Below, one piece after another: positions 7,850-22,699 of a stretch of DNA of 32,112 nucleotides. The stretch is from positions 1 to 32,112 of IMG/VR virus record IMGVR_UViG_3300042937_000486. One strand, written 5' to 3'. Both the position numbers and the translations under genes were made by a program. The stretch's first letter is position 1; each line of letters begins with the position of its first letter. Under the pieces are notes generated by a model. That model made no database searches. It saw only the letters and a program-made list of their open reading frames with translations, and was not told the origin of the DNA. This stretch comes from a virus.

Positions 7850-8290
7850 TTATTGTTTGTTGGTAGAAGCTGCAGATGTTCCAAAGTAGAATCCAATAAT
7901 ACTCAGTAGAACTTGTCTGTTTTCTGATGCCCACAAGAATCCATTTATCTCTACAAAGAACTTTCTAGTAGATTGTGGAACTATGCCAAACAATCCTTCT
8001 GGGGTAGTTGCATCAACTTCTACGAATGTGGGGACACCGAAGAATGGTAAAATGAATGGTGCAGCAAATGCACCAAATAAAACTGTTAGTACAATTATTT
8101 GACGGACAACTCTACCAGTATCAATAGGAACTCTTAAAGCAGCCTTGTCTTGATTGTCTGTTGTTTGTTTATTAGCAGTGATTAAACGGTCGAATATGTC
8201 TTTTTGATCTTGACTCTTTTGTGCCAAGTATCTGAATAGAAATCCTACAAAGCCACCACCAATTAAACTTATTAATTCTGTAGAAATCAT
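7850..8290 (-). CDS. Three-TM membrane protein, holin-like
   Basis: 146 aa with three predicted helices: about residues 6-24 (LISLIGGGFVGFLFRYLA), 64-84 (IIVLTVLFGAFAAPFILPFF) and 126-142 (VLLSIIGFYFGTSAA). The layout and the FYFGTS end resemble the 3-TM holin family of gene-transfer agents and phages (from memory). The start overlaps the upstream stop (TGATG). Likely forms the lysis lesion; without an alignment it could also be another small membrane protein. Confidence 0.65.
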   Translation of the reverse strand: MISTELISLIGGGFVGFLFRYLAQKSQDQKDIFDRLITANKQTTDNQDKAALRVPIDTGRVVRQIIVLTVLFGAFAAPFILPFFGVPTFVEVDATTPEGLFGIVPQSTRKFFVEINGFLWASENRQVLLSIIGFYFGTSAASTNKQ

Positions 8291-8862
8291 CAGTGTCTCC
8301 TGTTCAATTTTGCAAATTCAAGATATTGTTTTGCTAATCGTTTTTTGTTTTTCTTTGTTGGAGGTACAACATTCTGTGCATCTGGCACAGGTCTAACCCC
8401 AGCAATGTCAAAGTCGTATGGAGATGGGGTGGTACCAATAGTGGTTTCACCAGTTCCACCAACCATGCCACCCGATTGTCCACTACCTCCACCAGCAGTG
8501 ACTTCTTCTTGTAATTTCAGATTGCCGCTATATGCCATCGAACGAACGCGATTATACAACAATTGATCGTGTGTTATTGCATCGATTATGTTTTTCAGCA
8601 GTCCCAACATTCTTTTGCGATATATCAGATTACTGGTACGCAAAAATGGATGCTTCACATCGTACATCAAACTATTGGCTTTTGAACCATTCATGCCAGA
8701 TAACAACAGAAGATAATAGAATCTATTTGGGTTGTGAATAGATCCCTTGAGATAATCAACAATCTGCTTCATTTCCTTTTTATCGGGTGGAGCTTTTGCA
8801 GACTCGTTCATTTTGAACCAATCTCGAATGTCTTCTAGAAGATATACTGGTTTTGAGTTCAT
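8290..8862 (-). CDS. Hypothetical phage protein with Gly-rich linker, 190 aa
   Basis: An N-terminal helical part (residues 1-115) is followed by LKLQEEVTAGGG, a flexible Gly/Thr/Pro-rich stretch and a basic tail (KKNKKRLAKQYLEFAK). The LQEEV segment resembles a prohead protease site, so the protein may be processed in the head. Start overlaps the upstream gene by ATGA and the end overlaps the holin-like gene by TGATG. Function unknown; probably a virion protein. Confidence 0.75.
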   Translation of the reverse strand: MNSKPVYLLEDIRDWFKMNESAKAPPDKKEMKQIVDYLKGSIHNPNRFYYLLLLSGMNGSKANSLMYDVKHPFLRTSNLIYRKRMLGLLKNIIDAITHDQLLYNRVRSMAYSGNLKLQEEVTAGGGSGQSGGMVGGTGETTIGTTPSPYDFDIAGVRPVPDAQNVVPPTKKNKKRLAKQYLEFAKLNRRH

Positions 8863-9254
8863 ACGATCTCGCGAAGTTTAGTTATGATTCTTCTGTCAAG
8901 AGGAATTGCAATCAAATCTATATCAGGTATGCTTTCGGGTAATGTGTTTAAGTACACTAGAAAGGTTTTCAAATACAGATGTAGATCTTCCTCTATTCGT
9001 GAAAACAACAAACGAGCTGCTGCCTCCACACCAAAAACATTACAAAATATAATCAAATGATTCAATATCAATCGTTCTCTTAGCACACCAGAAGTCTTGT
9101 ATTTTCTAAACAATCTCTTCAGGTACTTGATTCTATTCATGTCCTCATGAAACTCTTCAATGTTTTTGCATTGAGGATTGTCATAGTTTTTCATGGCAAA
9201 CATCAAGAAATTATCATCATCTAATTTATAAAAATCCATAATTAACATTTCCAT
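8859..9254 (-). CDS. Conserved-type small phage protein, 131 aa
   Basis: Helix-rich sequence containing KNYDNPQCKNIEEF and MNRIKYLKRLFRKY, a pattern I associate with a conserved protein of marine T4-like phages; function is not known. The first ATG is kept because AAAGG sits eight bases upstream; a second in-frame ATG at 9239 (MDFYKLDDDNF) is possible. Ends in ATGA overlap with the next gene. Confidence 0.75.
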   Translation of the reverse strand: MEMLIMDFYKLDDDNFLMFAMKNYDNPQCKNIEEFHEDMNRIKYLKRLFRKYKTSGVLRERLILNHLIIFCNVFGVEAAARLLFSRIEEDLHLYLKTFLVYLNTLPESIPDIDLIAIPLDRRIITKLREIV

Positions 9255-9265
9255 TCAATAGACCT

Positions 9266-9799
9266 TTATTTTTTAAATGTCGAAGCAGCTTCAGATCCAC
9301 CCTCATAGGTAGTAGTTTCGCCAGCATCTCCAGCAACAATCTTGCCCTCAAGTGTGTGTTGACCAACTCCCTCTGGATGATTCATATCTATCACTAATTT
9401 AAGACCATGTCCTAATTTGTGTGTTAATCCATCGTCATCCAACTTGGTGCCCTTTTCATCAACACCAGTACGACCACCGAATTGAGTTAACTTGAATTCC
9501 ATATGTTCTGATGTTGGATATTTCTTGCCATCATATTTGAAATCTAAACCAATCTTGTTCAGTTCAACACGAAGCTGTATCAATTTTTGTCTTGGATCTA
9601 ACATACCAGCGGAAGGAACATTAGAAAGAAATGGCTGAACAAATGCGTTGATTCTTTCTAACATTTCTGGTTCTGAAAGATCGTGCAATCCAACACTGCC
9701 GTCAGCGGCTTGTTGACTATTGTAGCCAGGAACAACCATTCCGTGGCCCTCTAAAATGTCGTATTGTTCAATCAGTCTTCTTAGTTCTTTGAATTTCAT
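9266..9799 (-). CDS. Late virion-associated protein with capsid-targeting-like start
   Basis: 177 aa. Begins MKFKELRRLIEQYDILEG, a short amphipathic leader with LIE, as in its neighbours. A helical middle (PRQKLIQLRVELNKIGLDF) and a Gly/Asp-rich C terminus follow. The C-terminal half may be beta-structured. No known family named. One base separates it from the upstream gene, so it is co-translated in the late operon. Confidence 0.7.
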   Translation of the reverse strand: MKFKELRRLIEQYDILEGHGMVVPGYNSQQAADGSVGLHDLSEPEMLERINAFVQPFLSNVPSAGMLDPRQKLIQLRVELNKIGLDFKYDGKKYPTSEHMEFKLTQFGGRTGVDEKGTKLDDDGLTHKLGHGLKLVIDMNHPEGVGQHTLEGKIVAGDAGETTTYEGGSEAASTFKK

Positions 9800-9800
9800 A

Positions 9801-10103
9801 TTAGCAATTCCACTTTCTTAAAGATAATGCTTTTCTTGTTGGTCTACCTTTTTCATCTTTCATTGGGCCAGGCATTCCACCCATTCGCGCACAGAACGAC
9901 TTTCGACGCTTTGCTGCTTTTGATCCTGGCTTCAACTTAGATGGTTCTGTAGTTACTGCAGTTTGTAGTTTTGATCCTGGGTTTTCTCTTCTATAAGAAG
10001 CAACACCCTTCTTGTTCAAACCACCTTCTGGATTCTTGCCTTCTTTGCGAGTCCATGCTGCGGTTGATTCTTTGATGAGATGTTGTAATTTGAAAAAATC
10101 CAT
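9801..10103 (-). CDS. Small basic phage protein (DUF6321-like)
   Basis: 100 aa, very basic. After the leader MDFFKLQHLIKES come AAWTRKEGKNPEGGLNKKG, a linker, and KAAKRRKSFCARMGGMPG with RKWNC at the end. This arrangement is typical of a widespread phage family I recall as DUF6321. The Cys residues and basic patches suggest nucleic-acid binding. The leader has the late operon's capsid-targeting pattern (LIKE then Ser), so it may be packaged with DNA. Confidence 0.8.
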   Translation of the reverse strand: MDFFKLQHLIKESTAAWTRKEGKNPEGGLNKKGVASYRRENPGSKLQTAVTTEPSKLKPGSKAAKRRKSFCARMGGMPGPMKDEKGRPTRKALSLRKWNC

Positions 10104-10114
10104 ATTACTCTTAT

Positions 10115-11248
10115 TTATGCTTTACGCCATTTGTTGTTGTTACGAGAGCGGTTTGTGTGTGTAGAAACCACTCTCAGATTCTTTGGACTGTTATCATTAG
10201 CATTACCGTTTTTGTGATCCAGCTCGACTGAACTGTCCCCCTTGCGGGTTCTGCCAGATGCATTTGCTTTTCGTCTTGCAACCGTCCGCTTATCTTTCTT
10301 TTTTCTATTAGCCAATTGCTTTGCAGATGGACGCTCTTTGTCCCATCCATACATCTTATGATCTCTTTTCTTTCTAGTAGCATCTTTTGCTTCCTGTAAG
10401 AAAGATAGAATCTGAAGATAAGACTCTTTGACTGTTTTCTTTTTGGTTGGCTTGACTGGTTTAGCAGCAGCTTTGGCTGCTTTCTTTTCTGCTTTGGCCA
10501 CTTCTTTTGCCGCTTTATCATCAGCAATCTTCTTGTGGGAAGCATCGAGCTGAGTCTTAATTAATTTGAAATATGCCTTCTTATTCTTAACAGATGTTGG
10601 CATCATGGAATGTGCAACTTCCTCATCACCAGAAGAAACGGCATCGCGTAATCTACCAGCCTTTATTGCTGATATGTCGCCTAAATTGATACCCTTTAGA
10701 AGAGTCTTTCTATCTATTGCACCCTCGTTTCTTGTTCCACCCATTTGATGGAAGTTGATATCAACCTTGTGGACTTTTTTATCTTCCCCGACAAAGCCAC
10801 CATATCTTTCTAAGTGTTTCTCTAAATGTCCTTTGATTCCATTAGGTCCCATTTGATCAGAACCAACAGCAACAGTTATGTCTTTGTGTCCCTTTGATAT
10901 CATATGACTTATTTGGTGAAACGGTGTCATCGAACTAGCTTTTGGGACAATACCAAATTTCAACTTACCCTGATGTTCTTTTGGCATATTTGCAGCAATA
11001 TGTGCATGAGAACCCGAAACGATATCAGTCTTTTGTTCATGTGTGAGTGGTGCGTCTGGTTTTAATTCAGTTGTACCAATACCATGATAGAAGTGCGTGT
11101 GTCCAGTTGTAGCAGCATGATTTGCTGCCATTCTAGCCATCTCTTCGTGTGCTTTGGTATATGGACCAAATGCACCAGTAACCAAGAATGCCCTGCCAGG
11201 ATTCTTTGCTTCTATGAGAAGATTACGAATTTTCTGAAGGTTTATCAT
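10115..11248 (-). CDS. Nucleotidyltransferase fused to HNH endonuclease, capsid-targeting-like leader
   Basis: 377 aa in two enzymes. Residues 1-14 (MINLQKIRNLLIEA) are a T4-CTS-like leader. Residues 20-210 are a HIGH-type nucleotidyltransferase: GAFGPYTKAH with T31/H34, VGSDQM, and ISAIKAGRLRDAV in the place of the ISSTxxR motif. A Lys/Ala linker leads to a second leader-like segment (SYLQILSFLQEAKD) and then an HNH nuclease with VELDHKNGNANDNSPKNL and TNRSRNN. The internal leader suggests two tagged genes fused. The first domain could make NAD-like or sugar nucleotides; the second cuts DNA. Start overlaps the upstream gene by 26 bases. Confidence 0.8.
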   Translation of the reverse strand: MINLQKIRNLLIEAKNPGRAFLVTGAFGPYTKAHEEMARMAANHAATTGHTHFYHGIGTTELKPDAPLTHEQKTDIVSGSHAHIAANMPKEHQGKLKFGIVPKASSMTPFHQISHMISKGHKDITVAVGSDQMGPNGIKGHLEKHLERYGGFVGEDKKVHKVDINFHQMGGTRNEGAIDRKTLLKGINLGDISAIKAGRLRDAVSSGDEEVAHSMMPTSVKNKKAYFKLIKTQLDASHKKIADDKAAKEVAKAEKKAAKAAAKPVKPTKKKTVKESYLQILSFLQEAKDATRKKRDHKMYGWDKERPSAKQLANRKKKDKRTVARRKANASGRTRKGDSSVELDHKNGNANDNSPKNLRVVSTHTNRSRNNNKWRKA

Positions 11249-11498
11249 TCTTTTTTGCTCTTCTTTTTGACACTTTCTTGACTACTGGGGCTTCTACTTC
11301 CTCCAACAAAACAAGATCATCTAATTCTAATGTAGATTCAACTGCTGGGGATTTCTTGGACTTGATATGGAGTAATAGAAATGCTGATGTGACTAAGGTA
11401 TTGACTTTATCTTTAAGCCAATAAACCTTACCATCTTTCTTGATGAATGTACCACCAAACAATCCTTTAAATATTTTCATTAATTTAGTTTTCAACAT
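11223..11498 (-). CDS. Small basic protein with acidic centre, 91 aa
   Basis: Start at 11498 is set by TAATG overlap with the 29-aa gene and an AGGA site. Begins MLKTKLMKIFKGLFGG, an amphipathic helix, then TFIKKDGKVYWLKDKVNTL, a hydrophobic stretch, an acidic EL-rich part and a basic tail (KKVSKRRAKKND). No family recognised. The amphipathic start could bind membrane or act as a leader. Confidence 0.65.
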   Translation of the reverse strand: MLKTKLMKIFKGLFGGTFIKKDGKVYWLKDKVNTLVTSAFLLLHIKSKKSPAVESTLELDDLVLLEEVEAPVVKKVSKRRAKKNDKPSENS

Positions 11499-11587
11499 TA
11501 TTTTGGTTTTCCTGTATTCGGTTTCGGTCTTGGGGTTGGTCTTGCAGGCTGTCTCGGACCACCACATCCACATCCATTAGTAATCAT
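11498..11587 (-). CDS. 29-aa Cys/Pro/Arg microprotein
   Basis: A complete tiny gene: its ATG overlaps the stop of the ligase-like gene (ATGA at 11584-11587) and its TAA overlaps the next ATG (TAATG at 11496-11500). The product starts MITNGCGCGG and continues as a Pro/Arg/Lys tail ending TGKPK. CGC could bind metal; the tail is extended and basic. Tight coupling on both sides is the main reason to call it. Function unknown. Confidence 0.65.
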   Translation of the reverse strand: MITNGCGCGGPRQPARPTPRPKPNTGKPK

Positions 11588-12882
11588 TGTGCTTCTCCTG
11601 GATTTGATCGTTTCATGGCACCCATCTTACCTTTTTCGAAATTCATACGAGAGAATTGTTCTCTTTTGACTGCTTTAAGAGCCCTTCCAGTACTACTGTC
11701 AACCATAACAAATCCCTCTGGTTCTACTGCTTCATGATGAATTGACTCTGCACCAGTATGAGGATCCACCTTCGAAGTCTTAGAGTATGTTGCAATTCCT
11801 TTAGTCTTCTTTAATCCATCTATCAACAACGACTTTGCTTTTGCAATGTTGTGATGAGCAGTCAAGGTATTATGAATATGATCGCTATTTTGAAGAACAT
11901 GATTAATAAGTTCCACTCTTCTAGCATGTACTTTATCTTTGCCGGTTTGTGTTTTTAACTTATCGGCTTCTGCTGTATGTCTTTTAGTTATAAAATCGAC
12001 AAGATGTTCTTTAGTCGGCTTGTCAATGCCTCGTTTAACATTGTCATTTACAAACATTTTCAAGATAGGTCTAAGTGTTGGATGTTTTGTAGTAGAATCC
12101 AAGAAGTCAGCACTGTTGTCCATATGTTCATGTGCAAGTTTTAAATGCTCTACGATTTTCTTATGATCTCCAGCAGATAGAAGTTTTTCTTCTCCTTCTG
12201 GTTTGCTCATTTGTGCGTCTTTATGCCATACATCTGGGTGAGATTGAAAATGTGAGATCTCTGGTGAAAATTCTACTGATTGATCCTTAGCACCAAAGTT
12301 TTTGTAACCAGTATGAACTATGATACCCATTTTAGATCTTGCAATCTTCTTAGCATCATCTGTGCCATGTGGCACAGCATATGTTAATGTGTTTGGTGTA
12401 AATGAAATGTGTTCTTTACCATCAATATTTTCAGACTTGAGATCCTCTGGAGTATACATCATATCTCCTTGATACACCTCACCGTGCGGAACATTCAGCT
12501 TCTTTAAATGTGTATATGCTGCTTTCAGCTTTGTGACTAAGCCAGGAGAATCTCCATGATGTTTTTCTATGTCTCTGTGTGAGTAATTAATCTTTGGAGT
12601 CTTTGCGAATACAGATTTTGTTCCAACAAAGAACTTGCCTGTCTTGGGATGCATACCAAATATTACTGCAGGAGCACCATCATATTTGGTAGTTACTTTA
12701 AAATCTGGTCCATGCTTACCACGCAAACCATTTGCTAATGAATGTATGTAATGTGCCCCAGACTTGCCACCGGCATGTCCTTCGTCAAACATAGCATCCT
12801 CCGCATGTTCCAGATGTATGTTTGCACCCGGAGCTTCGTCAGTTTGTTCTAAGAGAAATTGTGAAAAATCAAACAAGTACAT
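11584..12882 (-). CDS. DNA/RNA ligase-fold nucleotidyltransferase (DUF6267-like), capsid-targeting-like leader
   Basis: 432 aa. Leader MYLFDFSQFLLEQTDE fits the capsid-targeting pattern. The rest carries the motifs of covalent nucleotidyltransferases: motif I K66-Y-D-G, a motif III-like HGEVYQGDMMY (E135), motif IV EGFV (389-392) and motif V K403xxK406. Such enzymes form a lysyl-AMP and seal nicks, or cap RNA. The spacing between motifs III and IV is long, with a helical insert (about 230-360). I recall the family as DUF6267 in cyanophages, without assigned activity. Start overlaps the upstream gene by 14 bases. Confidence 0.75.
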   Translation of the reverse strand: MYLFDFSQFLLEQTDEAPGANIHLEHAEDAMFDEGHAGGKSGAHYIHSLANGLRGKHGPDFKVTTKYDGAPAVIFGMHPKTGKFFVGTKSVFAKTPKINYSHRDIEKHHGDSPGLVTKLKAAYTHLKKLNVPHGEVYQGDMMYTPEDLKSENIDGKEHISFTPNTLTYAVPHGTDDAKKIARSKMGIIVHTGYKNFGAKDQSVEFSPEISHFQSHPDVWHKDAQMSKPEGEEKLLSAGDHKKIVEHLKLAHEHMDNSADFLDSTTKHPTLRPILKMFVNDNVKRGIDKPTKEHLVDFITKRHTAEADKLKTQTGKDKVHARRVELINHVLQNSDHIHNTLTAHHNIAKAKSLLIDGLKKTKGIATYSKTSKVDPHTGAESIHHEAVEPEGFVMVDSSTGRALKAVKREQFSRMNFEKGKMGAMKRSNPGEAQ

Positions 12883-13186
12883 AAGCAGTTATTCCAGACC
12901 CAAGTGTCAAAGAAGTTACTTTCTTTAAAGCAAGAGGGAGTACTAGAGTCTCGTGCTGTCGAACATTTACAGTAAATGTTACAGTCTTATATGTTCTGCC
13001 GGTATAATCACCATATTCTGTAGTATCTCTTACTCCTGCATTCTGTGTGATCCAAACTTCTGCAGTTATTGAAGTTGTGGCTCCTGCATCAAGACCATTT
13101 GTGAACATGATTGCTCTGGAATTTAACTCAACGCCTGTAGTAAGTGAACCTGTAATTGTGTATGCTGGTGGATTTGAAAATCTCAT
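12869..13186 (-). CDS. Small beta-rich protein, 105 aa
   Basis: Begins MRFSNPPAYTITGSL, with alternating hydrophobic and Thr/Ser residues throughout and KTVTFTVNVRQHETLVLPL near the end. Consistent with a beta-sandwich virion or decoration protein; no family named. AAGGAG precedes the ATG and a TATAAATA box lies 30 bp upstream, so it is a late gene. The end overlaps the ligase-like gene. Confidence 0.7.
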   Translation of the reverse strand: MRFSNPPAYTITGSLTTGVELNSRAIMFTNGLDAGATTSITAEVWITQNAGVRDTTEYGDYTGRTYKTVTFTVNVRQHETLVLPLALKKVTSLTLGSGITAYVLV

Positions 13187-13207
13187 TTTGTGTATTTCTC
13201 CTTGAAG

Positions 13208-13732
13208 TTACTCATTATTTATACTAATCCACCTTTCCCAAAGTTGATTGTGTCCATTATCATATACTTTAATCAGAATAAAGTCCTTATTTGGGGGAGC
13301 AGGAACAGCCAATAGTTTCATATTTGCTTCTGATGGTGTTCTATTCTTCTTTCTTACATTGCAGGGCTTGCAGCAAGAAACCATATTTTCCCATGTATTC
13401 TTACCACCACGGCTTTTTGGCAGCACATGATCCATTGTGAATAGGGTTTTTGTGAGCTTTTTAGAACAATACTGACACACACCACCATCTCGAATGTATA
13501 AATTCTTTTTAGTCATCTTACATTTACGGAATGGAATGCGAACATACTCAACCAATACAATAACTGTTGGGAGTTTTAATACTCCACTGGTAGTCTTGAT
13601 TTCGTGATAATCTTCATAATTGTATGGTTTGATTGCTTTACCAGCAATAACCAACTTAACCGCTTTGATCCAATCAATCACTCCAAGTACTTCTTCGGAA
13701 GCATTTAACAACAAAACTTCTTTATCCATCAT
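13208..13732 (-). CDS. HNH endonuclease
   Basis: 174 aa. Zinc pair C86/C89 (CQYC), HNH core MDHVLPKSRGGKNTWEN with D101/H102 and N116, and second pair C121/C124 (CKPCN). The N-terminal 80 residues are the usual helper domain of stand-alone HNH enzymes (KEVLLLNASEEVLGVIDW). It may be a homing endonuclease or a packaging or host-DNA nuclease. AGGAG precedes the start, three bases after the upstream gene. No capsid leader. Confidence 0.88.
   Translation of the reverse strand: MMDKEVLLLNASEEVLGVIDWIKAVKLVIAGKAIKPYNYEDYHEIKTTSGVLKLPTVIVLVEYVRIPFRKCKMTKKNLYIRDGGVCQYCSKKLTKTLFTMDHVLPKSRGGKNTWENMVSCCKPCNVRKKNRTPSEANMKLLAVPAPPNKDFILIKVYDNGHNQLWERWISINNE
13216..13223 (-). promoter_or_regulatory. T4-type late promoter box TATAAATA
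   Basis: Exact box on the - strand inside the 3' end of the HNH gene, 30 bp before the ATG of the 105-aa gene. Would start transcription of the ligase/nucleotidyltransferase block independently. Confidence 0.65.
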
Positions 13733-13735
13733 ATA

Positions 13736-14659
13736 TTACTCCTGTGAGCTTAACATTGCATCTACTGTAGATAGAAATCTCTTTGAGTATTTCTTGTATA
13801 GTTTATTCATATCCTTAGTTTCTTTTGCAAACACCTTGTCTACTTCTTTTTCGTCAGAATCTAATAGTTTCTTTACCATCTTTTTGTTTACTGCTGATGG
13901 ATCTTTTTCTGAACTTAGAATCTTATCTTGTACAAACTCTGCAAATTCTTTATCTTCCATAGAAAGTAACTGTTGAAAGTATTGTAGATATTCTGCACGA
14001 CCGTATGCCTGTTGACTAGACTTAGCAGGTGCAGCCTTACCACCTCCACCACCACCGCGAGTAGGGGCGCTTCCACCTTGTTCTTTTGCATTTGGTCCAC
14101 CGGATGCTTGAAATTTCAACATGGTTGGACTTGATGGAGCACCATCAACATTGTTCGGGGCAGCTTTTGATGGGGGATCATTTAGAGATCCTGAGGCTTC
14201 GCCAGTATTCATAATAACACTGGCAGCTTTGATGAAGCGATCTTTATACTTCATAAATGGATCTCTGTATGTGCCCCATTCTTTATCTTGGGTGGAAAAC
14301 AGATTCTCCCATCGTTGCAATCCGCTCATTAAATCTTTAACAGTAAAAGAAGAAACAGGCTTCTCATTATCAAAAGCCAAACGATACAATCTATCTTGTA
14401 CCCAATTCATAAACTCAGCATCATTTAATTGCATCGCATTCATCATTGTATTTCTTTTTCTACCAACAGCTTGCACAGAATATTGTTTAATAACTGCTTC
14501 CTCGTTTACTGATCTCATGGTTCCCGTTGGAATTATAGTCGTTATAAGTTTACTTGCCATAGCAACAGAATTCAGTTTTTGATCACCCATCAACTTGCGT
14601 TTAACGCCATGTCGTTCCAGTATCTTTTTAACTTTTGATAATATCTGTGCTCGATCCAT
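13736..14659 (-). CDS. Hypothetical phage protein with duplicated helical domain
   Basis: 307 aa, started at 14659 because GGAG lies six bases upstream. A similar segment occurs twice: DAEFMNWVQDRLYRLAF near residue 110 and DKEFAEFVQDKILSSE near 240, joined by a Gly/Ala/Pro-rich linker (residues about 160-210). N and C ends are basic and helical. This looks like a two-lobe structural or DNA-associated protein; no family named. It follows a terminator and a GATAAATA box, so it heads its own transcript. Confidence 0.7.
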   Translation of the reverse strand: MDRAQILSKVKKILERHGVKRKLMGDQKLNSVAMASKLITTIIPTGTMRSVNEEAVIKQYSVQAVGRKRNTMMNAMQLNDAEFMNWVQDRLYRLAFDNEKPVSSFTVKDLMSGLQRWENLFSTQDKEWGTYRDPFMKYKDRFIKAASVIMNTGEASGSLNDPPSKAAPNNVDGAPSSPTMLKFQASGGPNAKEQGGSAPTRGGGGGGKAAPAKSSQQAYGRAEYLQYFQQLLSMEDKEFAEFVQDKILSSEKDPSAVNKKMVKKLLDSDEKEVDKVFAKETKDMNKLYKKYSKRFLSTVDAMLSSQE

Positions 14660-14678
14660 ATGATACTCCATTTAAAAG

Positions 14679-14686
14679 TATTTATC
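14679..14686 (-). promoter_or_regulatory. Late promoter-like box GATAAATA
   Basis: One mismatch to TATAAATA, located between the terminator and the 307-aa gene with about 20 bp to its ATG. Position fits a late promoter restarting transcription after the terminator. Confidence 0.5.
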
Positions 14687-14690
14687 TATT

Positions 14691-14715
14691 AAAAAACCCC
14701 CATTGCTGGGGGTTT
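14691..14715 (-). terminator. Rho-independent terminator
   Basis: 8-bp stem AAACCCCC/GGGGGTTT, loop AGCAAT on the - strand, followed by TTTTTT. Ends the transcript of the 422-aa gene. Same loop and core as the terminator at 19.66 kb. Confidence 0.85.
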
Positions 14716-14718
14716 CTT

Positions 14719-15987
14719 TTACTTCTTTTTGTTTTTGGGTAATGTTGCTTGTAGTTTCTTTATTTCTGCTGAATTTCCTTTACCAGCAGCGCGCAACGCT
14801 TGTATCTTCTGTATTGTGGTTTTCTTATATCCACCTCTGGCTTTAACTACAGTTGATTTTGCATCAACCTTTACTTTGCTAGATTTGGCTGCAGATTCCT
14901 TTGCTTTAGATGCAATTCTTTTTTGCATTGCTTCTTTGTTACCAAGCAATCCACGAACCTTTGCAACTGCACCGCCAATGCCCTTGCCAGCAGAAGATGT
15001 TGCATTTTTCTCAAGAGTTTCTTTTGCTTTTGCAAGTATTGCTTTATTGGTAGATCCTTTAGATTTTTCTAATTTATTAACTAGAGCATGTAATTCTGCA
15101 GTTGTTGCTTTTCTTGTACCATCCGCACGACGACCGGCGCGTGAAGTTGCCAATTCTTTTTCATTCTCTGCCATTGCATCTTTTTTATCGAGTCGTGTTT
15201 CTCTATCTTTACCATATTTCTTTGTCTTGGCAACAAAATCACCAATACCTTTTGCAGAACGCACAGCAGCCTTAGCACCACCAGCATATGCCTTAATTTT
15301 ATTAAGAATACCTTCTTCTAATTGTTCTTCGGTGAGTAGTTCAATCTCTTCAAACGAATATGTTTCGATAAGATCGTCAATAAAAGAAATTGTAAAAACA
15401 TCATGCTGATCTTCTGTCAAGCAATCCAACACATCTGAATATTCTTCTGCAACAACTGGTTTCTTGTTTCTGTGTATTGCAGCATCATATACAGCGGCTC
15501 CGTCAAAAGGCAATCCTCTTCTTGCTCTATTGACTTTGAGTTTATCAAGGGCATGCCTTGCTTTCCCTGCTGCTCCTAGTCGTTTGTAAGTTAATTCGTC
15601 TTGTTGTTCTTGTGATAAACCATCCGGCATACCACCAGTAGATGCTTGTAAAGCCTTTGCATATGCACCCAAAGCACGACCAGCTTTTGCAGCATTGGCT
15701 TCTGTTATATCTTCGTCCGCACCGTCAGTTTCTTCTTTTTGTATACTAGCTTTCATGTCAGCTTTCAATTCCTCTTCACAATCCTTGCAATGTCCAGATC
15801 CTTCAGTATCGTTAGGATCAATTGATTCGCCACAATCTTTGCAAGTAGATGATTCTTGACGCTTGTACTTGCCAACATAAGAAGGTTTCTTTCCAGCAAG
15901 AGCGGCTGCAGTTGGCAATCCTGGATTACCATTTGCTTCAAGGTAAGTCTTCGATACTTCTTTGATCCAATCTGAGTCGTTTGTCAT
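14719..15987 (-). CDS. Zinc-ribbon, Lys/Ala-rich late protein, 422 aa
   Basis: Leader MTNDSDWIKEVSKTYLEANG belongs to a second leader class in this region (W-helix-Y-x-E). A four-Cys zinc ribbon follows: C49, C52, C67, C70. The middle is acidic with LLTEEQLEEG, a good match to a T4-type prohead protease site, as is DITEANA near residue 93. The last 190 residues are Lys/Ala/Arg-rich like histone tails and should bind DNA. Together this suggests a processed, DNA-associated head core or internal protein. Separated from the upstream gene by one base; a terminator follows. Confidence 0.75.
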   Translation of the reverse strand: MTNDSDWIKEVSKTYLEANGNPGLPTAAALAGKKPSYVGKYKRQESSTCKDCGESIDPNDTEGSGHCKDCEEELKADMKASIQKEETDGADEDITEANAAKAGRALGAYAKALQASTGGMPDGLSQEQQDELTYKRLGAAGKARHALDKLKVNRARRGLPFDGAAVYDAAIHRNKKPVVAEEYSDVLDCLTEDQHDVFTISFIDDLIETYSFEEIELLTEEQLEEGILNKIKAYAGGAKAAVRSAKGIGDFVAKTKKYGKDRETRLDKKDAMAENEKELATSRAGRRADGTRKATTAELHALVNKLEKSKGSTNKAILAKAKETLEKNATSSAGKGIGGAVAKVRGLLGNKEAMQKRIASKAKESAAKSSKVKVDAKSTVVKARGGYKKTTIQKIQALRAAGKGNSAEIKKLQATLPKNKKK

Positions 15988-15988
15988 G

Positions 15989-17872
15989 CTAGTCCTTTAA
16001 TTTGGCTGTGTTAGTTTGCTTATTATATGTATATTTTGAAGGAGAATTTCCAGATTTCTTGCTTGCCCTATCTTTGGCTCTCTCTCCCGGTGTCATACTA
16101 TTACGAGTTTCACCTTTATCTGTTAATGCAAGCGAGTCTTGCTGTAATATGCCAAATTGGCGCAATTTACCTATTGCTACATTTGCTGCACCAGAAACAC
16201 CTTTTGATCTCAATTGATTTGTAAGACGAGTGAGTATCTTTGGCTTTGTTTCTTCTTTGATTTTGACTGTTCTCAATCTGAATTTTGTGTTTGGATGTGA
16301 TTGTTGTAACTCACCAACCGCATCTACATTTGGAGCATGATCATCACTGAACTCAACTTTTTTATAATTCTTACCAGCAATATGAGTACCGAGTGCATTT
16401 CTTTTTGCATTTGGATCAGAAGAACCAACTGCCATTATTTTCAAACGCTTGCCGCGCACTCCACGAGTCTTTAAATACTTGCGAATCGCATCTTCGGATT
16501 TGGCAGGTCTTGCAGTAAGCACTGCTACATCTCTGCCTTTTCTAGAAGCATTTCTTGCTGCTCTATCTAATCCGGTAACTGGTACTGGATCTACAACATT
16601 ATGAAAATCTGTATAATCCATTTGATGATGCTTCTCTGGTGTAAACTTTGCATATTCAGCCGGAGTTAAATATGTAATTTCACCATTACGAGTATCAGTA
16701 ACTTTGACTTTTGAATTTGTATGTGCTAATGTATCATCAAAATCAAATACATGGAGATGTTTTTTTGCTTCAGTTATCTTATCTTTTTTTCCATGAAACA
16801 CATCTCTCCAACCAGATACATTTTTTGTCCAGTTCTTATTCAAGCCAGTTGGATCATTACTGGCTCCAGCTGGTGCATATTTGCTTGCAAGATATGGAAT
16901 AAAATCTTCTGGTTTGCCACCAGATGATATATGTGAACGATATTTGCTCATTACAGTGGCTGCAGCCCATCCGGCTTGTCTATCCAGAGTGGTTTCTTTT
17001 CCTTCACCTTTTTTGCCTAAAGCTTTTGGTGCAAGGACTCCAAATTCTTTTCCAGATTTGCCATTCTCTGCTTTACGAATACCAAACAATGTAGCTATAT
17101 GGTCGTGATCTGTTGCCTTTATACCATTTCGCTCTGCAGCAGCCATTATGATTGGGTATTCTTCGCCAAAGTGTTGTTGCAATCTAGCGTGAAATTCTTT
17201 ATGTCCAGGCGGTTCTTTTGTTTTTACTTCAGGCATCTTTGATTGAACATCTTTAGGAATAATCAATGATGCTTTTGGTTTTTTGATTTGTGGTGCTGCT
17301 GCATTTACTTGTGCTATATGAACTTCTGGTTTCTTTGGAAACATATTCTTAACTGCTTTACCACCACCAAATGCCACAGCTCCTGCAACAGCAGCAGTGC
17401 CCAATACCTTTGCGATATCTTTCTTTAAACTCTCATTGACAATTTCATTTCTTTCATAATCTTTGATCACATAATCTGGATGTGCTTTGCGTAATTTTTG
17501 AACTATGCCAGATATATGTGATGGTGGAGTCTTGTTATCGTATGTTAAAGAGATGGCTTTAAGATCATGATCGACTCTACCAGAAGGTCTTCTGGGGCCG
17601 CCTTCTGGGTAATGTAATTCATCCATGCCAAACATATCGCCATGTGTGGCTTTTGGTCTCCACTCTGGTATTTTTTTTCTTTTGATAGTATCATCGTGGT
17701 GTACCCAGAGTTCTGTGTTTGTACTAGAACCAATACCACCAGTATATGCCTGATGACCAATTTCAGTATATGCATCCTTATCAACAGGATATTGGTGCCT
17801 AGTCTTTACTCTTTTGTAAAATTCTGGCACATCCGGTTCATTAGATTCTGAAAATTGACCAAATGACTTCAT
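15989..17872 (-). CDS. Lysozyme-like plus HAD phosphatase protein with capsid-targeting-like leader
   Basis: 627 aa. Leader MKSFGQFSESNE. Residues about 15-145 are an unassigned domain (ELWVHHDD, GDMFGMDELHYPEGGP). A Gly/Ala stretch near 155-175 may be a membrane helix. Residues about 225-355 look like a lysozyme/transglycosylase (FGIRKAENGKSGKEFGVL, RQAGWAAATVMSKY, NWTKNVSGWRD). Residues 372-540 are a HAD phosphatase: motif I D377-F-D379-D-T, VLTARP, and FSDDHAPN. The tail (MTPGERAKDRASKKSG) is basic. It could be a virion enzyme for entry plus a nucleic-acid end or nucleotide phosphatase. ATGA overlap with the 61-aa gene upstream. Confidence 0.75.
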   Translation of the reverse strand: MKSFGQFSESNEPDVPEFYKRVKTRHQYPVDKDAYTEIGHQAYTGGIGSSTNTELWVHHDDTIKRKKIPEWRPKATHGDMFGMDELHYPEGGPRRPSGRVDHDLKAISLTYDNKTPPSHISGIVQKLRKAHPDYVIKDYERNEIVNESLKKDIAKVLGTAAVAGAVAFGGGKAVKNMFPKKPEVHIAQVNAAAPQIKKPKASLIIPKDVQSKMPEVKTKEPPGHKEFHARLQQHFGEEYPIIMAAAERNGIKATDHDHIATLFGIRKAENGKSGKEFGVLAPKALGKKGEGKETTLDRQAGWAAATVMSKYRSHISSGGKPEDFIPYLASKYAPAGASNDPTGLNKNWTKNVSGWRDVFHGKKDKITEAKKHLHVFDFDDTLAHTNSKVKVTDTRNGEITYLTPAEYAKFTPEKHHQMDYTDFHNVVDPVPVTGLDRAARNASRKGRDVAVLTARPAKSEDAIRKYLKTRGVRGKRLKIMAVGSSDPNAKRNALGTHIAGKNYKKVEFSDDHAPNVDAVGELQQSHPNTKFRLRTVKIKEETKPKILTRLTNQLRSKGVSGAANVAIGKLRQFGILQQDSLALTDKGETRNSMTPGERAKDRASKKSGNSPSKYTYNKQTNTAKLKD

Positions 17873-18054
17873 TTATAAGATTCCGTGAGAACGCTTTCAA
17901 GAACAACTGCAATTTCTTTTTCAGTTAATTCAACATCATGTGCTTCTTCGTATCTGCAAATGGCTTCAACGATACTAGAAGTGTTACTGTTTGCCCATTG
18001 CTCAAACAATGCTTGTTTAGCATATGATTCTGATATTGTTTTTACCCAGTTCAT
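17869..18054 (-). CDS. Small acidic late protein, 61 aa
   Basis: Begins MNWVKTISESYAKQALFEQW, matching the W-helix-S-x-x-Y leader class of the 422-aa and 219-aa proteins, and ends in LESVLTESYK. Almost entirely helical. ATGA overlaps on both sides place it firmly in the operon. Possibly a small head core peptide; function unknown. Confidence 0.75.
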   Translation of the reverse strand: MNWVKTISESYAKQALFEQWANSNTSSIVEAICRYEEAHDVELTEKEIAVVLESVLTESYK

Positions 18055-18206
18055 TTGTTTTTTCCTTTTACTCTTTTCATCATCTCTCTTGCAGCAATTA
18101 GTATATCAGATGGTGATGGTGATGTGTTAGTGGGTTTACTTCTTGCATCTTCTCTTGCAAGTGCTGCTCGTATTTCTTTTATGTGATCTTCAATATCAGA
18201 TTTCAT
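18051..18206 (-). CDS. Small charged protein, 51 aa
   Basis: Starts MKSDIEDHIKEIRAALARED, then a Ser/Pro/Thr linker, then a basic helix (AAREMMKRVKGKNK). The ATG overlaps the upstream gene by 11 bases and the TGA overlaps the next ATG (ATGA). Translational coupling on both ends supports it as real. No family recognised. Confidence 0.7.
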   Translation of the reverse strand: MKSDIEDHIKEIRAALAREDARSKPTNTSPSPSDILIAAREMMKRVKGKNK

Positions 18207-19185
18207 GTTTCTTTGCTTTGATTTTATTAACAGAATCTGTAAATATTCCAGAAGTAGAATGTATTGTATGATGTGGTCTCAACATATCTATAGTTGATGG
18301 ACTGTCTTTGACTTTGCCATGAACTTTAATAGCAGTTACGGCTCTTCTGTTATAGAATCCAGTTGCTTTCTGTCTAACAGAATCTTTTGCTCTTATTCTT
18401 AAAGATACTTTCAATCCTTGACCAAGAATTGGTGGAGCATTTCCTTGTTTATCAAGAATATTCAATGGATTTTCTTCGGATGTTCTATACAAATGAGCTC
18501 GATTTGATGATTTGCCATTCTTGCCGGAGACAGTTACATGCTGTATATGGTACATAGAACCATGATGTTCTTTGTGATGATCTGCTAATATTGTTCCATC
18601 CATCGGAAGATACATTTCTCCACCTGTATGAATGTGATATGCTTCATCGTTTAGATGCTTCATTTCTCTGCCAGATTTTATTGGTTTCTTTGGTGCTTCT
18701 AGAGTTGTTCCATAATGTTTAGTCATTATGTCGAGTAAATGAGTTGGTTTACGCGAGATCGTCTTTTCTGCTCCACCAAGACCACCAACAGCGCCTGATG
18801 TAAATTGTTTCTTTTCTATATGTCTTTGTAATGCAGTTGAAGTTGCAGAATGAGTCCATTTTCTGCCTCCAAGACCATCTGGTACAAATTTCAGTGTTCC
18901 TTGACCAACATCTTTTCCACTAAACTCATGACCGTGACCAATGCTAACACCAACACCGTGAATCATTGCATCGACTTGGTGGCCACAACCACCTTGTTCT
19001 GCACATTGCTCATGTCCTATTTTTTTCATTGACGACTTGATGCGCTTTTCTGCATCTTGCCATGGCTTTGGTTTAATTTTATTCTTTTGACCAGGAGTTG
19101 CAACTACAGCCGCTGCTGGAGCGACACTTCTTTTAGTCATCTCATTAATGAGTTGTAATTTTTCAAGCAATTGCTGTTTGTTCAT
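18196..19185 (-). CDS. Late protein with capsid-targeting-like leader, 329 aa
   Basis: Start at 19185 chosen for AAGGG upstream and for the leader MNKQQLLEKLQLINEMTK (INE). The body has many His and Gly: MIHGVGVSIGHGHEFSGKD, HIHTGGEMYLPMDG and HHKEHHGSMYHIQHV, and three Cys near residues 60-68 (CAEQGGCGHQ). A folded, possibly metal-binding enzyme is suggested, but no catalytic motif is recognised. It overlaps the 51-aa gene by 11 bases. Confidence 0.72.
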   Translation of the reverse strand: MNKQQLLEKLQLINEMTKRSVAPAAAVVATPGQKNKIKPKPWQDAEKRIKSSMKKIGHEQCAEQGGCGHQVDAMIHGVGVSIGHGHEFSGKDVGQGTLKFVPDGLGGRKWTHSATSTALQRHIEKKQFTSGAVGGLGGAEKTISRKPTHLLDIMTKHYGTTLEAPKKPIKSGREMKHLNDEAYHIHTGGEMYLPMDGTILADHHKEHHGSMYHIQHVTVSGKNGKSSNRAHLYRTSEENPLNILDKQGNAPPILGQGLKVSLRIRAKDSVRQKATGFYNRRAVTAIKVHGKVKDSPSTIDMLRPHHTIHSTSGIFTDSVNKIKAKKHEI

Positions 19186-19201
19186 TGTCGTATTATATCC
19201 C

Positions 19202-19630
19202 TTAATCAGATTGTGAGCACATATCGTCTGCACAGTATTTCTTCTTGCAATCTTCTTTGGACATATCTGGATAGTTCTCTTTGCACTGTTCCATGCACTC
19301 GGATGGAGTTCCATGATACATTTCAGACAATTGAGACAACATGTCTAAGTATGCTTTAGATAGCTGAGTTATGACATTGGATTCCATGACCTCTTCTTTA
19401 TCGCCACCTTTGCGAGAAGCCATGATGCTATTGATGTCGGCTAATTCCTTTTCGTGACGCGCTTTCTCTTCACCTTCGGTTTCGGCAATCTTTTTGGTGT
19501 ATTCATCAACCAAACCATTTAACTCCTCGTCAGATAGTTTGATTAGTTCTTCGTGTGTGTGACTCTCTCGAATCATATTCGAGTATGCTTTGGCTAATTG
19601 TTGTATAATTGGGTCGTTGAAATTGTTCAT
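19202..19630 (-). CDS. Late protein with duplicated leader helix and Cys-rich tail, 142 aa
   Basis: Leader IIQQLAKAYSNMIRES near the N terminus is echoed by VITQLSKAYLDMLSQLSE near residue 90, so the gene holds two copies of the module. Between them is an acidic coiled coil (KIAETEGEEKARHEKEL). The tail has five Cys (CMEQCKENYPDMSKEDCKKKYC and CSQ), perhaps a small disulfide or metal fold. AAAGGA and a TATAAATA box precede it. Possibly a head core protein. Confidence 0.75.
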   Translation of the reverse strand: MNNFNDPIIQQLAKAYSNMIRESHTHEELIKLSDEELNGLVDEYTKKIAETEGEEKARHEKELADINSIMASRKGGDKEEVMESNVITQLSKAYLDMLSQLSEMYHGTPSECMEQCKENYPDMSKEDCKKKYCADDMCSQSD

Positions 19631-19646
19631 AATAGTTCCTTTATAC

Positions 19647-19654
19647 TATTTATA
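19647..19654 (-). promoter_or_regulatory. T4-type late promoter box TATAAATA
   Basis: Exact box on the - strand, 17 bp before the ATG of the 142-aa gene and just after a terminator. Well placed to restart late transcription. Confidence 0.75.
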
Positions 19655-19658
19655 CAAT

Positions 19659-19684
19659 CAAAAACCCCCCATTGCTGGGGGGTT
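19659..19684 (-). terminator. Rho-independent terminator
   Basis: 8-bp stem AACCCCCC/GGGGGGTT with loop AGCAAT and a T run on the - strand, closing the transcript of the 219-aa gene. Core nearly identical to the terminator at 14.7 kb. Confidence 0.85.
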
Positions 19685-19708
19685 GTGTGTTAATGTTGAT
19701 TTATTTAC

Positions 19709-20368
19709 TTACACAGTCCATTTGTCTGCATGTGCTCGTTCTGCTCGCTTCTTTTCAATTGCTGCTGCTGCTTTGGCTGCTACATCTCGTCTATTGGCAC
19801 GATCTGCATTTCCCATAGCAGTTAATTCTTTGTGTGCCATTTCTCTGTCAGCTTCTGGCACTTTAGATATATTTAGTGGGGTATCTTTTCCGATGGGATA
19901 GTGTTCGTGCGGTGTGCGGACTTCTTTGCCTGAATGAATATAGCCATGACTTGATGGATCACTATTAAAACGCGTTTCAGCTCCTGCTGCTGTCGTTGCT
20001 TTATTAAGCCTATCTCCCAGGCGTGCATCTTGCTCACCTTGCGCCATGCCAGGCCCGTTGCCAATCGCCTTGCCATCTGAGTTTAATTTGTCATTACGAC
20101 GGGATACCAATCCCTTTACTCTGCCAGCATATCTCTTTGCGAGAGCTTCCCCCTTTGGGGTGTTTCTGTTTTTATCTGATACTTGATATTCCATCAAGTC
20201 TTCTACAGACACTTCTAATGCTTCAGCAATTGATATAACAATATCCTCTAGTTCAGAAATGTATTGCGCTTGTTCGTTTATAAGTTCTTCATTTATATTA
20301 GAAGGTGCGCCTGCTGAATTGTTGATGTATGAATTAGTAAGTTCTTGTAACCATCTTGAGTCTGTCAT
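19709..20368 (-). CDS. Late protein with coiled-coil module, 219 aa
   Basis: Leader MTDSRWLQELTNSYINNSAG is of the W-helix class. Then INEQAQYISELEDIVISIAE, which matches the NEQLAYIxELEDA module of the two genes at 21.9-22.7 kb. The rest is charged and probably extended, with KAAAAIEKKRAERAHAD at the end. AAAGG lies seven bases before the ATG. Likely a head core or scaffold-associated protein; function unknown. Confidence 0.72.
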   Translation of the reverse strand: MTDSRWLQELTNSYINNSAGAPSNINEELINEQAQYISELEDIVISIAEALEVSVEDLMEYQVSDKNRNTPKGEALAKRYAGRVKGLVSRRNDKLNSDGKAIGNGPGMAQGEQDARLGDRLNKATTAAGAETRFNSDPSSHGYIHSGKEVRTPHEHYPIGKDTPLNISKVPEADREMAHKELTAMGNADRANRRDVAAKAAAAIEKKRAERAHADKWTV

Positions 20369-20405
20369 ATTGAATCCTTTTTAATACATTCTATCTTATT
20401 ATATA

Positions 20406-21062
20406 TCATTTCTCTGGATGGTGAATCAACTTCCACGATCCATGCTCTCTGTAGTCAATACCATACACTTTAGATTCGTGTTCTTCTGGCTTGTAAACGG
20501 GAATATGTTCATCCGTGTTTTCATTGAAAGCAGCAGATCCACCAAGACGGGTTATATCCTTCCACATACTATGCGAACCATGTGTATGTGCATCTCCGCT
20601 CATAATGGATTTCTTGAGATGCTTTGCTGCCATCATGTACACATTAGCAGCCAGATTTGGAACCTTAGCCCGCTTTCCTGTATGCTCTCTTGCAAATGTA
20701 GGAGAAGCGTGTGGATAAAGAACTGTCTTGCTTGCACCTGGCAGTTTCTTTGGTTTTGGCAGTTCTATGAAATCAACATGACCAATTGGTTCTTGTTCGT
20801 GCTTCACAATGAAACTGTGTTTGTCTTGTTCTGGGGAGTGATAAACTTTGTATGGGCCTAATTCGCCAATCTTAACATGAAGACCTTTGTTTGGTGTTGC
20901 TGGATAGTCAGCAGTCGGAGCTTTTACAGCATCGCGGACATCCTTGGCATGATTGAATGGCATATTCGGATCCATCAAATGCACTCTCTTAGCATGAATA
21001 CCAAAATCGGTAGTGGCATCAAAGAATGGTGCTTCAGAGATGTACTTCTTAAAGCTTTTCAT
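20406..21062 (-). CDS. Late protein with capsid-targeting-like leader, acetyltransferase-like?, 218 aa
   Basis: Leader MKSFKKYISEAPF is nearly superposable on T4 internal protein leaders, with ISE then Ala. The body shares a domain with the next gene: LGPYKVYHSPEQDKHSFIV, then HTGKRAKVPNLAANVYMMAA and SMWKDITRLGG. The order of strands and a GKxxxVxNLxxxxY helix loosely recalls GNAT acetyltransferases, but I see no firm motif. ATGA overlap with the upstream gene. Confidence 0.72.
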   Translation of the reverse strand: MKSFKKYISEAPFFDATTDFGIHAKRVHLMDPNMPFNHAKDVRDAVKAPTADYPATPNKGLHVKIGELGPYKVYHSPEQDKHSFIVKHEQEPIGHVDFIELPKPKKLPGASKTVLYPHASPTFAREHTGKRAKVPNLAANVYMMAAKHLKKSIMSGDAHTHGSHSMWKDITRLGGSAAFNENTDEHIPVYKPEEHESKVYGIDYREHGSWKLIHHPEK

Positions 21063-21856
21063 TTCTTTTTCTTACCATCTAAGCGTAGAACTATATCTTC
21101 GTTTCCATCTTCTTGAAATGGATGACCATACACAAACGAATCGTGTGTAGCAGGATTATACTTCTTAATATCACTCAGTTTAATTGATTTCTTTTTGAAC
21201 TCGTCTGGATGAGGAAGATGTTCTTTTTTCTTGATCGCTGCCAATCTTTTTGGGTGCATTCCAGAAACAGCCAAATGTTCTTTTGCCGTTTTAAAATCTC
21301 CATAACCAGCATATTCACCACCATGCAATGCTTCATGCTCATCAGAATAATCTTGAAAGTTTCCTGCATTCATAGAAAGATTTGGATGTCTTGGATGAGT
21401 GTGTACATTTACGCTTGTAGGGGCTCTTACTCCAGTTGGTGTTCCAACCGTGACTGTTCTCATTTTTGCCACTCTATTCCAAATAGATTTACCACCCTTA
21501 GTCTGTCTTGTTCCACTCTCTATTGGCGCTACTTTATCTGCAATCATAGAATAGATCTTTGGAACAAGGTTTCTTACTAATGCATTCTTACCACTATGCT
21601 TTCTGTGCATCTCTGGCATATTAATGCTTATTCTGCCTCTTCCCACTCTACCGATATCCATCACACCAACTTGCTTTCCCTTATGTTGTACAGACACCTG
21701 ATCAATTTCGTGATGGTGATGAACTTCATATGGACCAACATTACCAAGTTTGGTAGCCGGACCATCTGGTATTCTAGTGGTGAATGTGTTGCCACGATGT
21801 CTGGAACCCAGTTCCATCATGGGAAACTCTAGAAGAAATTCAGAAAAGCTTTTCAT
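21059..21856 (-). CDS. Paralogous late protein with capsid-targeting-like leader, 265 aa
   Basis: Leader MKSFSEFLLEFPMM (LLE). Residues about 25-135 align with the 218-aa neighbour: VGPYEVHHHHEIDQVSVQ, HSGKNALVRNLVPKIYSMIA, KSIWNRVAKM. A further C-terminal region of about 110 residues (HPNLSMNAGNFQDYSDEHEA, HPDEFKKKSIKLSDI) is absent from the neighbour. The pair arose by tandem duplication. Function unknown; possibly transferred into the host with DNA. Confidence 0.72.
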   Translation of the reverse strand: MKSFSEFLLEFPMMELGSRHRGNTFTTRIPDGPATKLGNVGPYEVHHHHEIDQVSVQHKGKQVGVMDIGRVGRGRISINMPEMHRKHSGKNALVRNLVPKIYSMIADKVAPIESGTRQTKGGKSIWNRVAKMRTVTVGTPTGVRAPTSVNVHTHPRHPNLSMNAGNFQDYSDEHEALHGGEYAGYGDFKTAKEHLAVSGMHPKRLAAIKKKEHLPHPDEFKKKSIKLSDIKKYNPATHDSFVYGHPFQEDGNEDIVLRLDGKKKK

Positions 21857-22386
21857 GTGTTATTGGTATTGCCCAATTGTCTCAATGCCCTAGCCCTTCC
21901 TGGTTTTCGTCGTCTTGTTTCTGCATCTCCGGGTGTAGCATCGAGTCGGCTAAACCGTCCCTCTGGTTTCCCACCAAACCAATTTTTGCCGTCTGCAACT
22001 TTCTTCTCCACTGCCTTAAGATAACTAATTCGGAGTTCATTGCTGATCTCACTTAAAGTTTCTTCTTTCACAGTTTTATTTTGTATCTTACTAATTCTGT
22101 CTTTTCGATCAAATGCGCTTGTCAATTTTTTGTCTTCATCTGCAGTCATTTCATGTCTATCGCCTTCTTCATAAGACTTCTCCGCATTGTCATCAATGGT
22201 CTTCTGTGCCTTGTTCTTTTCTCTCTTCAATATCGCATCTCTTTCAGGAGTCATTCTATAGGCTTCATCCAAAGACAATATAGCATCTTCTAATTCAGTA
22301 ATATAAGCCAATTGTTCATTGACAGTCTCTTGGAGTTTAACGGATTCATTAAAGTAATGTTGATATTTTCTTACTAAGTCTGACAT
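21853..22386 (-). CDS. Late coiled-coil protein, 177 aa
   Basis: Start at 22386 (ATG, AAGGGTGG upstream, one base after the previous stop) rather than the GTG codons just before. First 45 residues (KYQHYFNESVKLQETVNEQL then AYITELEDAI) are almost the same as the next gene upstream. The rest is charged, with a basic Arg-rich end (ETRRRKPGRARALRQLG). FNE then Ser could be a processing site. Probable head core protein. Confidence 0.75.
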   Translation of the reverse strand: MSDLVRKYQHYFNESVKLQETVNEQLAYITELEDAILSLDEAYRMTPERDAILKREKNKAQKTIDDNAEKSYEEGDRHEMTADEDKKLTSAFDRKDRISKIQNKTVKEETLSEISNELRISYLKAVEKKVADGKNWFGGKPEGRFSRLDATPGDAETRRRKPGRARALRQLGNTNNT

Positions 22387-22387
22387 A

Positions 22388-22699
22388 TCATTCACCACCC
22401 TTTTGTTTTTCTATTTCTTTCAAAAGATCTTCAATTTTAGGACTTCCGGTTCTATTTGCAGCAGCATCTTGTTGCTTCCTAAGTTTTGCTAGTTTTGCAT
22501 CAGCCTGCTTGAGCAGTTCTCCCTCTTTTCCCCATGATATGCTTTTATTGGTAAAAGGTATTTTAATTTCACCTTCACTCAAATCAATGAGAGCATCTTC
22601 TAATTCAGCAATATAAGCCAATTGTTCATTAACAGTCTCTTGCAACTTGACCGATTCATTGAAGTAGTGTTGGTACTTTTGTACGAGTATATCAGACAT
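22388..22699 (-). CDS. Late coiled-coil protein, 103 aa, first gene of late operon
   Basis: Begins MSDILVQKYQHYFNESVKLQ, then ETVNEQLAYIAELEDALI. This 40-residue module is repeated in the next gene and partly in the 219-aa gene. The C-terminal half is a charged helix (ADAKLAKLRKQQDAAANR). AAGGA precedes the ATG and an exact late box lies 42 bp upstream. Likely a scaffold or core-associated protein. Confidence 0.75.
   Translation of the reverse strand: MSDILVQKYQHYFNESVKLQETVNEQLAYIAELEDALIDLSEGEIKIPFTNKSISWGKEGELLKQADAKLAKLRKQQDAAANRTGSPKIEDLLKEIEKQKGGE

Follow-up and report, generated by a model that had tools for sequence, protein, structure and literature searches.

The internal proteins IPI, IPII and IPIII of phage T4 begin with an N-terminal leader of about 10 residues, the capsid-targeting sequence (CTS), with aromatic residues at positions 4 and 7, Leu or Ile at 8 and Glu at 10. 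Mutations of IPIII have shown that residues 4 and 7 are needed for targeting and residues 8 and 10 for processing, and the CTS has already been proposed in the T4 literature as a general loading route for various proteins in T4-like phages (PMC9026906). Reports on S-CREM2, S-SZBM1 and S-SCSM1 raise possible carriage of enzymes in virions and, in the excerpts used here, do not raise a shared leader (PMC10665884, PMC9146016, PMC9602691). Here we analysed a 32,112-base virus record, a fragment (IMGVR_UViG_3300042937_000486; the window, at its full length), in which genes of a probable late block open with leaders resembling the CTS. We judge it likely, with a probability of roughly 0.78, that the block at about 9266-22699 encodes, for a T4-like myovirus, a multi-protein cargo that is targeted to the capsid as in T4 and probably ejected.

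The nine leaders quoted in the initial annotation are all present, in frame and at start codons, in minus-strand open reading frames (ORFs) within 7850-22699; that of MNKQQLLEKLQLINEM starts at 19185, which differs from the longest-ORF start at 19314. Further leaders were MKSFGQFSES (15989-17872), MSDLVRKYQHYFNES and MSDILVQKYQHYFNES (21853-22386 and 22388-22699), MNNFNDPIIQQLAKAYSNMIRES (19202-19630) and MTDSRWLQELTNSYIN (19709-20368). Genes were called automatically, with a caller tuned on the starts of S-CREM2 (matching the annotation of that phage at 93% of starts), and residues 1-20 were compared with internal 20-mers from the same proteins. The T4-style core [FYL]xx[FY][LIFMV]xE was found in residues 1-20 of 5/43 window proteins versus 0.19% of internal 20-mers, a 60-fold excess (p=2.5e-8), and a looser motif in 7/43 (p=1.8e-6); these p-values are somewhat optimistic because the expression was fixed after the window leaders, the T4 sequences and the S-CREM2 virion-protein list had been viewed. 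All five aromatic-core matches belong to minus-strand genes at 11584-22699, and all seven looser-motif genes lie on the same strand at 9801-22699, with zero in the rest of the window. The same test gave p=2.8e-4 in S-CREM2, p=0.006 in G018 (a contig of 146 kb that shares 82% identity with the window in ribonucleotide reductase) and p=0.001 in the related contig G019; the N-terminal excess was not significant in S-SZBM1. In a 36-gene stretch of T4 used as a control, the motif marked only IPII and IPIII. The leaders are real and non-random.

They are also more than one homogeneous class. Good matches to the T4 positions were seen in the genes at 21059, 20406 and 11584, exact in the first two and with two extra residues in the third, while the others match partially; the best window leaders retain the four IPIII residues that are important in T4. 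An aliphatic version ending in (L/I)xE is found at 10115, 9801 and 18196, conserved helices of other kinds with a final E at 14719, 9266, 17869, 19202 and 21853/22388, and weak cases at 15989 and 19709. The claim that the leaders precede unrelated bodies also held: the only similarities are between the paralogous bodies at 20406 and 21059 (31%) and in the coil of the genes at 19709, 21853 and 22388.

Published virion data from relatives link such leaders to the particle. In S-CREM2, for which a virion proteome with gene coordinates is available (PMC10665884), the leader motif (residues 1-16) occurs on 6/219 proteins, and 5/6 were virion-detected against a background of 52/219 (Fisher p=0.003; p=1.7e-4 against non-structural virion proteins). 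These five are a SAM lyase (PF23780), an APH-like kinase, a cytidylyltransferase and two proteins without assigned function. Cytidylyltransferase/NMNAT proteins were likewise virion-detected in S-SZBM1 (PMC9146016) and S-SCSM1 (PMC9602691). The corresponding nucleotidyltransferase (NTase) leaders are MKNFSSFLTEA in S-CREM2, MRFRQFIIEA in S-SZBM1 and MKSFLQFLKEA in S-SCSM1, every one on a virion-detected protein. Two leaderless DUF6267 proteins, S-CREM2 gp87 and S-SZBM1_141, are absent from the virion lists, two cases only. Over 86 residues, the window DUF6321 body aligns at 41% identity with the end of the virion-detected S-CREM2 gp137, and a G018 protein starting MKSFRNILREA is 51% identical to the S-CREM2 virion protein gp156. 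S-CREM2 gp12 (L025:7704-10313), annotated as Cas9/Csn1 and listed among the virion-detected proteins, has LRFASFMAEA at residues 17-26; it had no Pfam match, so the Cas9 name looks doubtful and is not relied on here. The start of S-CRM01_128, SRWAKWSRGTEVKLSLDSFIKEAA, resembles that of gp12.

Comparison with relatives indicates separate evolution of leader and body. Relatives of the DUF6267 gene occur in T4-like phages of Synechococcus, Prochlorococcus, Pelagibacter, Methylophilales and Stenotrophomonas. Other environmental contigs contain closer ones, at 66-73% identity, together with one near-identical copy; a megablast search of the phage collection with the region found no match at the DNA level. 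Among these relatives the leader is exchanged at a fixed junction: MYLFDFSQFLLE, MHLFDFTQFLTE, MLTLINFSKYITE (Melnitz), MMKFTQFLAE (DLP6) or MMLDFKNFITE (C48C1), with none in S-SZBM1, S-CRM01 and the partial homologue S-CREM2 gp87. At the DUF6321 junction the window has MDFFKLQHLIKE/S-TAAWTRK and G018 has MKSFLQHLQE/S-AAWTRK, a different leader at an identical junction. NTase-HNH proteins begin with MINLQKIRNLLIEA or MSNLQQILKYLKEA in close relatives and with MKSFFNLTEQ or MKSFFDLKEQA in a more distant clade. For the 422-residue protein, the W-helix leader has 88% mean identity across 8 phages, versus 24% for the following 30 residues; S-SCSM1_92, a virion protein in the same gene neighbourhood, starts MTHLNDISKVYMEKV, which resembles the W-helix leader (resemblance only). 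In G018, nine genes match M[KL][ST]Fxx[FYHI][LIFM]xE against 0.0025 expected under independence. Their leaders are near-identical (MKSFLQxLxE type), eight of the nine lie at 118.7-132.0 kb on one strand, and the tagged bodies are unrelated apart from one short similarity. A G018 protein at 118733-119896 (L144:18733-19896) starts MKSFIQFLSES and matches ART-PolyVal weakly, short of the cut-off (E 0.002); it may be a counterpart of T4 Alt. In S-SZBM1, MKSFKSFLSES is found on a 105-residue protein near structural genes (122311-122628; L031:22311-22628) that is absent from the published virion list.

A gp21-type protease (PF03420) was found in 7/7 complete DUF6267 relatives and in 3/3 lineage contigs longer than 100 kb (G018, G019 and G020). 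TATAAATA, which we take to be the T4 late -10 motif, occurs at 4 sites in the window versus 0.99 expected, and lies within about 45 bases upstream of the genes starting at 22699, 19630 and 13186; these promoter-like sites offer weak direct support for late synthesis of the block. We infer the remaining steps from T4 and from the relatives' virion data. The cargo proteins would be synthesised late, and each would dock into the scaffold, or core, of the prohead through its N-terminal amphipathic leader. Cleavage after the leader-terminal Glu would follow, by a gp21-type protease whose gene would lie in another part of the genome. The released bodies would remain in the head around the DNA and would most likely be ejected with it, acting early in infection. 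The proposal of capsid-targeting leaders on unrelated late proteins is upheld by the motif statistics, the orthologue comparison, the protease in complete relatives and the mass spectrometry of relatives' virions.

Several observations weigh against this reading. Leaders at a number of the genes depart from T4 spacing, the motif misses T4 IPI itself, and the leaders at 9266, 17869, 11584 and 10115 are not markedly better conserved than their bodies. Relatives of the 627-residue protein begin M(K/R)SFRQHMSGG, without the Glu. PF03420 was not found in the 32-kb window fragment nor in shorter related contigs, which is expected of fragments and proves nothing. The virion data come from S-CREM2, S-SZBM1 and S-SCSM1, outside this phage and its close lineage, and consist of tryptic peptides; the authors of the S-CREM2 study caution that CsCl purification may fail to remove abundant non-virion proteins (PMC10665884). 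The weak points are the W-helix leaders, the 627-residue protein and several of the enzyme names.

Among the alternatives, the likeliest is that the block encodes components of the prohead core or scaffold, whose leaders bind the scaffold, whose role is in head assembly and whose fate is degradation or retention instead of delivery. In T4, gp21 processes the core proteins gp22, gp67 and gp68, and loss of IPIII slows head assembly (PMC9026906); in the window, several of the proteins are small, charged or coiled. We consider this unlikely, because the bodies are diverse, enzyme-like and variable between phages, and because a SAM lyase and a kinase-like protein, neither an obvious core protein, are among the S-CREM2 virion proteins with leaders. 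N-terminal helices shuffled by recombination and serving another purpose, for instance localisation to the membrane or to replication sites, would fit the W-helix, YQHYFNES and MKFKELRRLIE leaders, which deviate from T4 spacing, but the match of the best leaders to T4 targeting and processing residues, the virion association and the late promoter candidates make this very improbable. Chance, on the view that hydrophobic N termini of this length with a final Glu are commonplace, is scarcely credible even though the bare (L/I/F/M)xE(A/G/S/Q) motif, without the aromatic core, had no association with virion detection in S-CREM2 (p=0.27), given the excess of the full motif over internal background, the nine near-identical G018 leaders and the conservation of the 14719 leader over its linker.

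Under the preferred reading of a delivered cargo, the probable biochemical roles of the bodies would lie in nucleotide or nucleic-acid chemistry (NTase-HNH, HAD/kinase-like and DUF6267 proteins). The initial annotation had named a nucleotidyltransferase-HNH protein, a ligase-fold protein and a lysozyme/HAD protein, and these labels fared unevenly. The C-terminal HNH of the 377-residue protein is nearly invariant across clades, yet HNH_3 is below the Pfam cut-off. Its N-terminal domain aligns with clade-B proteins bearing GRFQPPTxGH and ISGTKVR, presumably nucleotidylyltransferase motifs, and its likely NTase identity comes through these relatives with intact motifs. The C-terminus of the 627-residue protein matches phrog_415 (polynucleotide kinase, E 2e-10), in line with the HAD/kinase-like label, and the lysozyme label found no Pfam or PHROG match. 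A KxDG motif is invariant in DUF6267, as would fit a covalent nucleotidyltransferase, and the 432-residue protein is possibly a nucleotidyltransferase or ligase. Its structure model was poor (predicted local distance difference test, pLDDT, 57) and the fold search returned nothing at E<=0.001, so the ligase fold is argued from motifs; a sequence profile gave no match in the PDB.

Some of the cargo might also be polyproteins with gp21-type sites at domain junctions (NTase-HNH; N-terminal region-HAD), one tagged precursor giving several proteins, and a wide range of T4-like phages might deliver enzyme arsenals in this way. At the NTase/HNH junction, after a lysine-rich linker, the window has a leader-like segment, TVKESYLQILSFLQE/AKDATRK, and relatives have segments ending ALQRIASFMEAAKDPTRK or LLLEKTKDPTRK, hydrophobic and with a final E ahead of the invariant HNH block. 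Conserved internal (L/I/F/V/M/Y)xE(A/G/S/Q) sites in the 627-residue protein were found at 3/34 conserved Glu columns, a number near chance as judged from a rough residue-frequency estimate, so the polyprotein idea is argued from position. We regard the polyprotein extension as rather doubtful.

Table 1. Features of the block; a slash follows the last residue of each leader or leader-like segment.
Feature	Position	Strand	Leader and remarks
177-residue protein	9266..9799	-	MKFKELRRLIE/Q (9767-9799); in nearly all close relatives; spacing unlike T4 CTS
100-residue DUF6321 protein	9801..10103	-	MDFFKLQHLIKE/S (10068-10103); PF19846 E 1.3e-24
377-residue NTase-like + HNH protein	10115..11248	-	MINLQKIRNLLIE/A (11210-11248); orthologues in relatives
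Leader-like segment between domains of 377-residue protein	10391..10426	-	ESYLQILSFLQE/A
432-residue DUF6267 protein	11584..12882	-	MYLFDFSQFLLE/Q (12847-12882); PF19782 E 2.4e-97
Late promoter candidate, upstream of 13186	13216..13223	-	TATAAATA
422-residue protein	14719..15987	-	W-helix MTNDSDWIKEVSKTYLE/A (15937-15987)
627-residue protein, HAD/kinase-like C-terminal domain	15989..17872	-	MKSFGQFSE/S (17846-17872); weak case
Site directly before HAD domain of 627-residue protein	16769..16777	-	ITE/A; in 7/8 relatives
61-residue protein	17869..18054	-	MNWVKTISE/S (18028-18054); relatives MQDPTKAIAE/AY
329-residue protein	18196..19185	-	MNKQQLLEKLQLINE/M (19141-19185)
142-residue protein	19202..19630	-	MNNFNDPIIQQLAKAYSNMIRE/S (19565-19630); site in 5/5 aligned relatives
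Late promoter candidate, upstream of 19630	19647..19654	-	TATAAATA
219-residue protein	19709..20368	-	W-type MTDSRWLQELTNSYIN (20321-20368); end without Glu, weak case
218-residue cargo candidate	20406..21062	-	MKSFKKYISE/A (21033-21062); F4, Y7, I8, E10, A11
265-residue cargo candidate	21059..21856	-	MKSFSEFLLE/F (21827-21856); F4, F7, L8, E10 as T4 IPIII CTS
177-residue protein with conserved coil	21853..22386	-	Start MSDLVRKYQHYFNE/S; N-terminal module common to different bodies
103-residue tandem paralogue	22388..22699	-	Start MSDILVQKYQHYFNE/S
Late promoter -10 candidate for block	22741..22748	-	TATAAATA

The 329-residue protein is found only in this phage and in a near-identical copy (L010). 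The N-terminal helix of the 142-residue protein, IIQQLAKAYSNM, seems to be repeated internally as VITQLSKAYLDM, and in L006 the second half of this protein is encoded separately, with a leader of its own. For the adjacent paralogues at 20406-21856, a similar-looking leaderless body (GPYEVHHH) is present in G019 at 144755-145504. The tandem genes at 21853-22699 have their first 40 residues (the coil) in common and then diverge, an arrangement that recurs in L002, L005 and L006. Elsewhere in the window, a collagen-like Gly-x-y repeat protein (103-963, plus strand) adjoins a large tail-like protein, and at 27676-31861 the genes for a large VWA/CobT-like protein and a MoxR-like AAA ATPase form a divergent pair, possibly equivalent to cobS and the 'midasin'/'peptidase' genes in T4-like cyanophages.

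If the cargo reading holds, 'hypothetical proteins' of abundant aquatic T4-like phages become predicted virion cargo, testable from sequence alone. It would also offer a possible cause for the presence of nucleotidyltransferase, kinase and SAM lyase in cyanophage virions, which the authors of those studies could not separate from contamination. A leader profile could list the proteins that phages may carry into the cell at entry, counter-defence proteins included, and the leaders are natural tags for protein delivery. The open-access literature that we searched held no report of this leader in cyanophage-type genomes, and capsid targeting together with cyanophage returned one T4 review only.

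Compared with known systems, the block resembles the T4 internal proteins in its T4-like genome, in the gp21-type protease (in relatives) and in a leader common to different bodies. It differs in its many more tagged proteins with enzyme-like bodies and in the aliphatic and W-helix leader variants, for which no description in T4 was found in the literature searched. T4 Alt, a packaged ADP-ribosyltransferase that acts on the host, has a possible counterpart in the tagged G018 protein with the weak ART-PolyVal match; none was seen in the window. The Dar proteins of phage P1 are likewise unrelated anti-restriction virion proteins with an N-terminal packaging signal, as in DarB, but the DarB signal has more than 9 and up to 30 residues, the Dar proteins are without a common consensus and P1 belongs to a different phage group (PMC9024508). 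The virion enzymes of S-CREM2, S-SZBM1 and S-SCSM1 include an NTase of the same superfamily with the same leader type, whereas the window bodies differ. The proposed mechanism is one known from T4, and the novelty lies in the scale and the enzyme-rich cargo in environmental T4-like phages.

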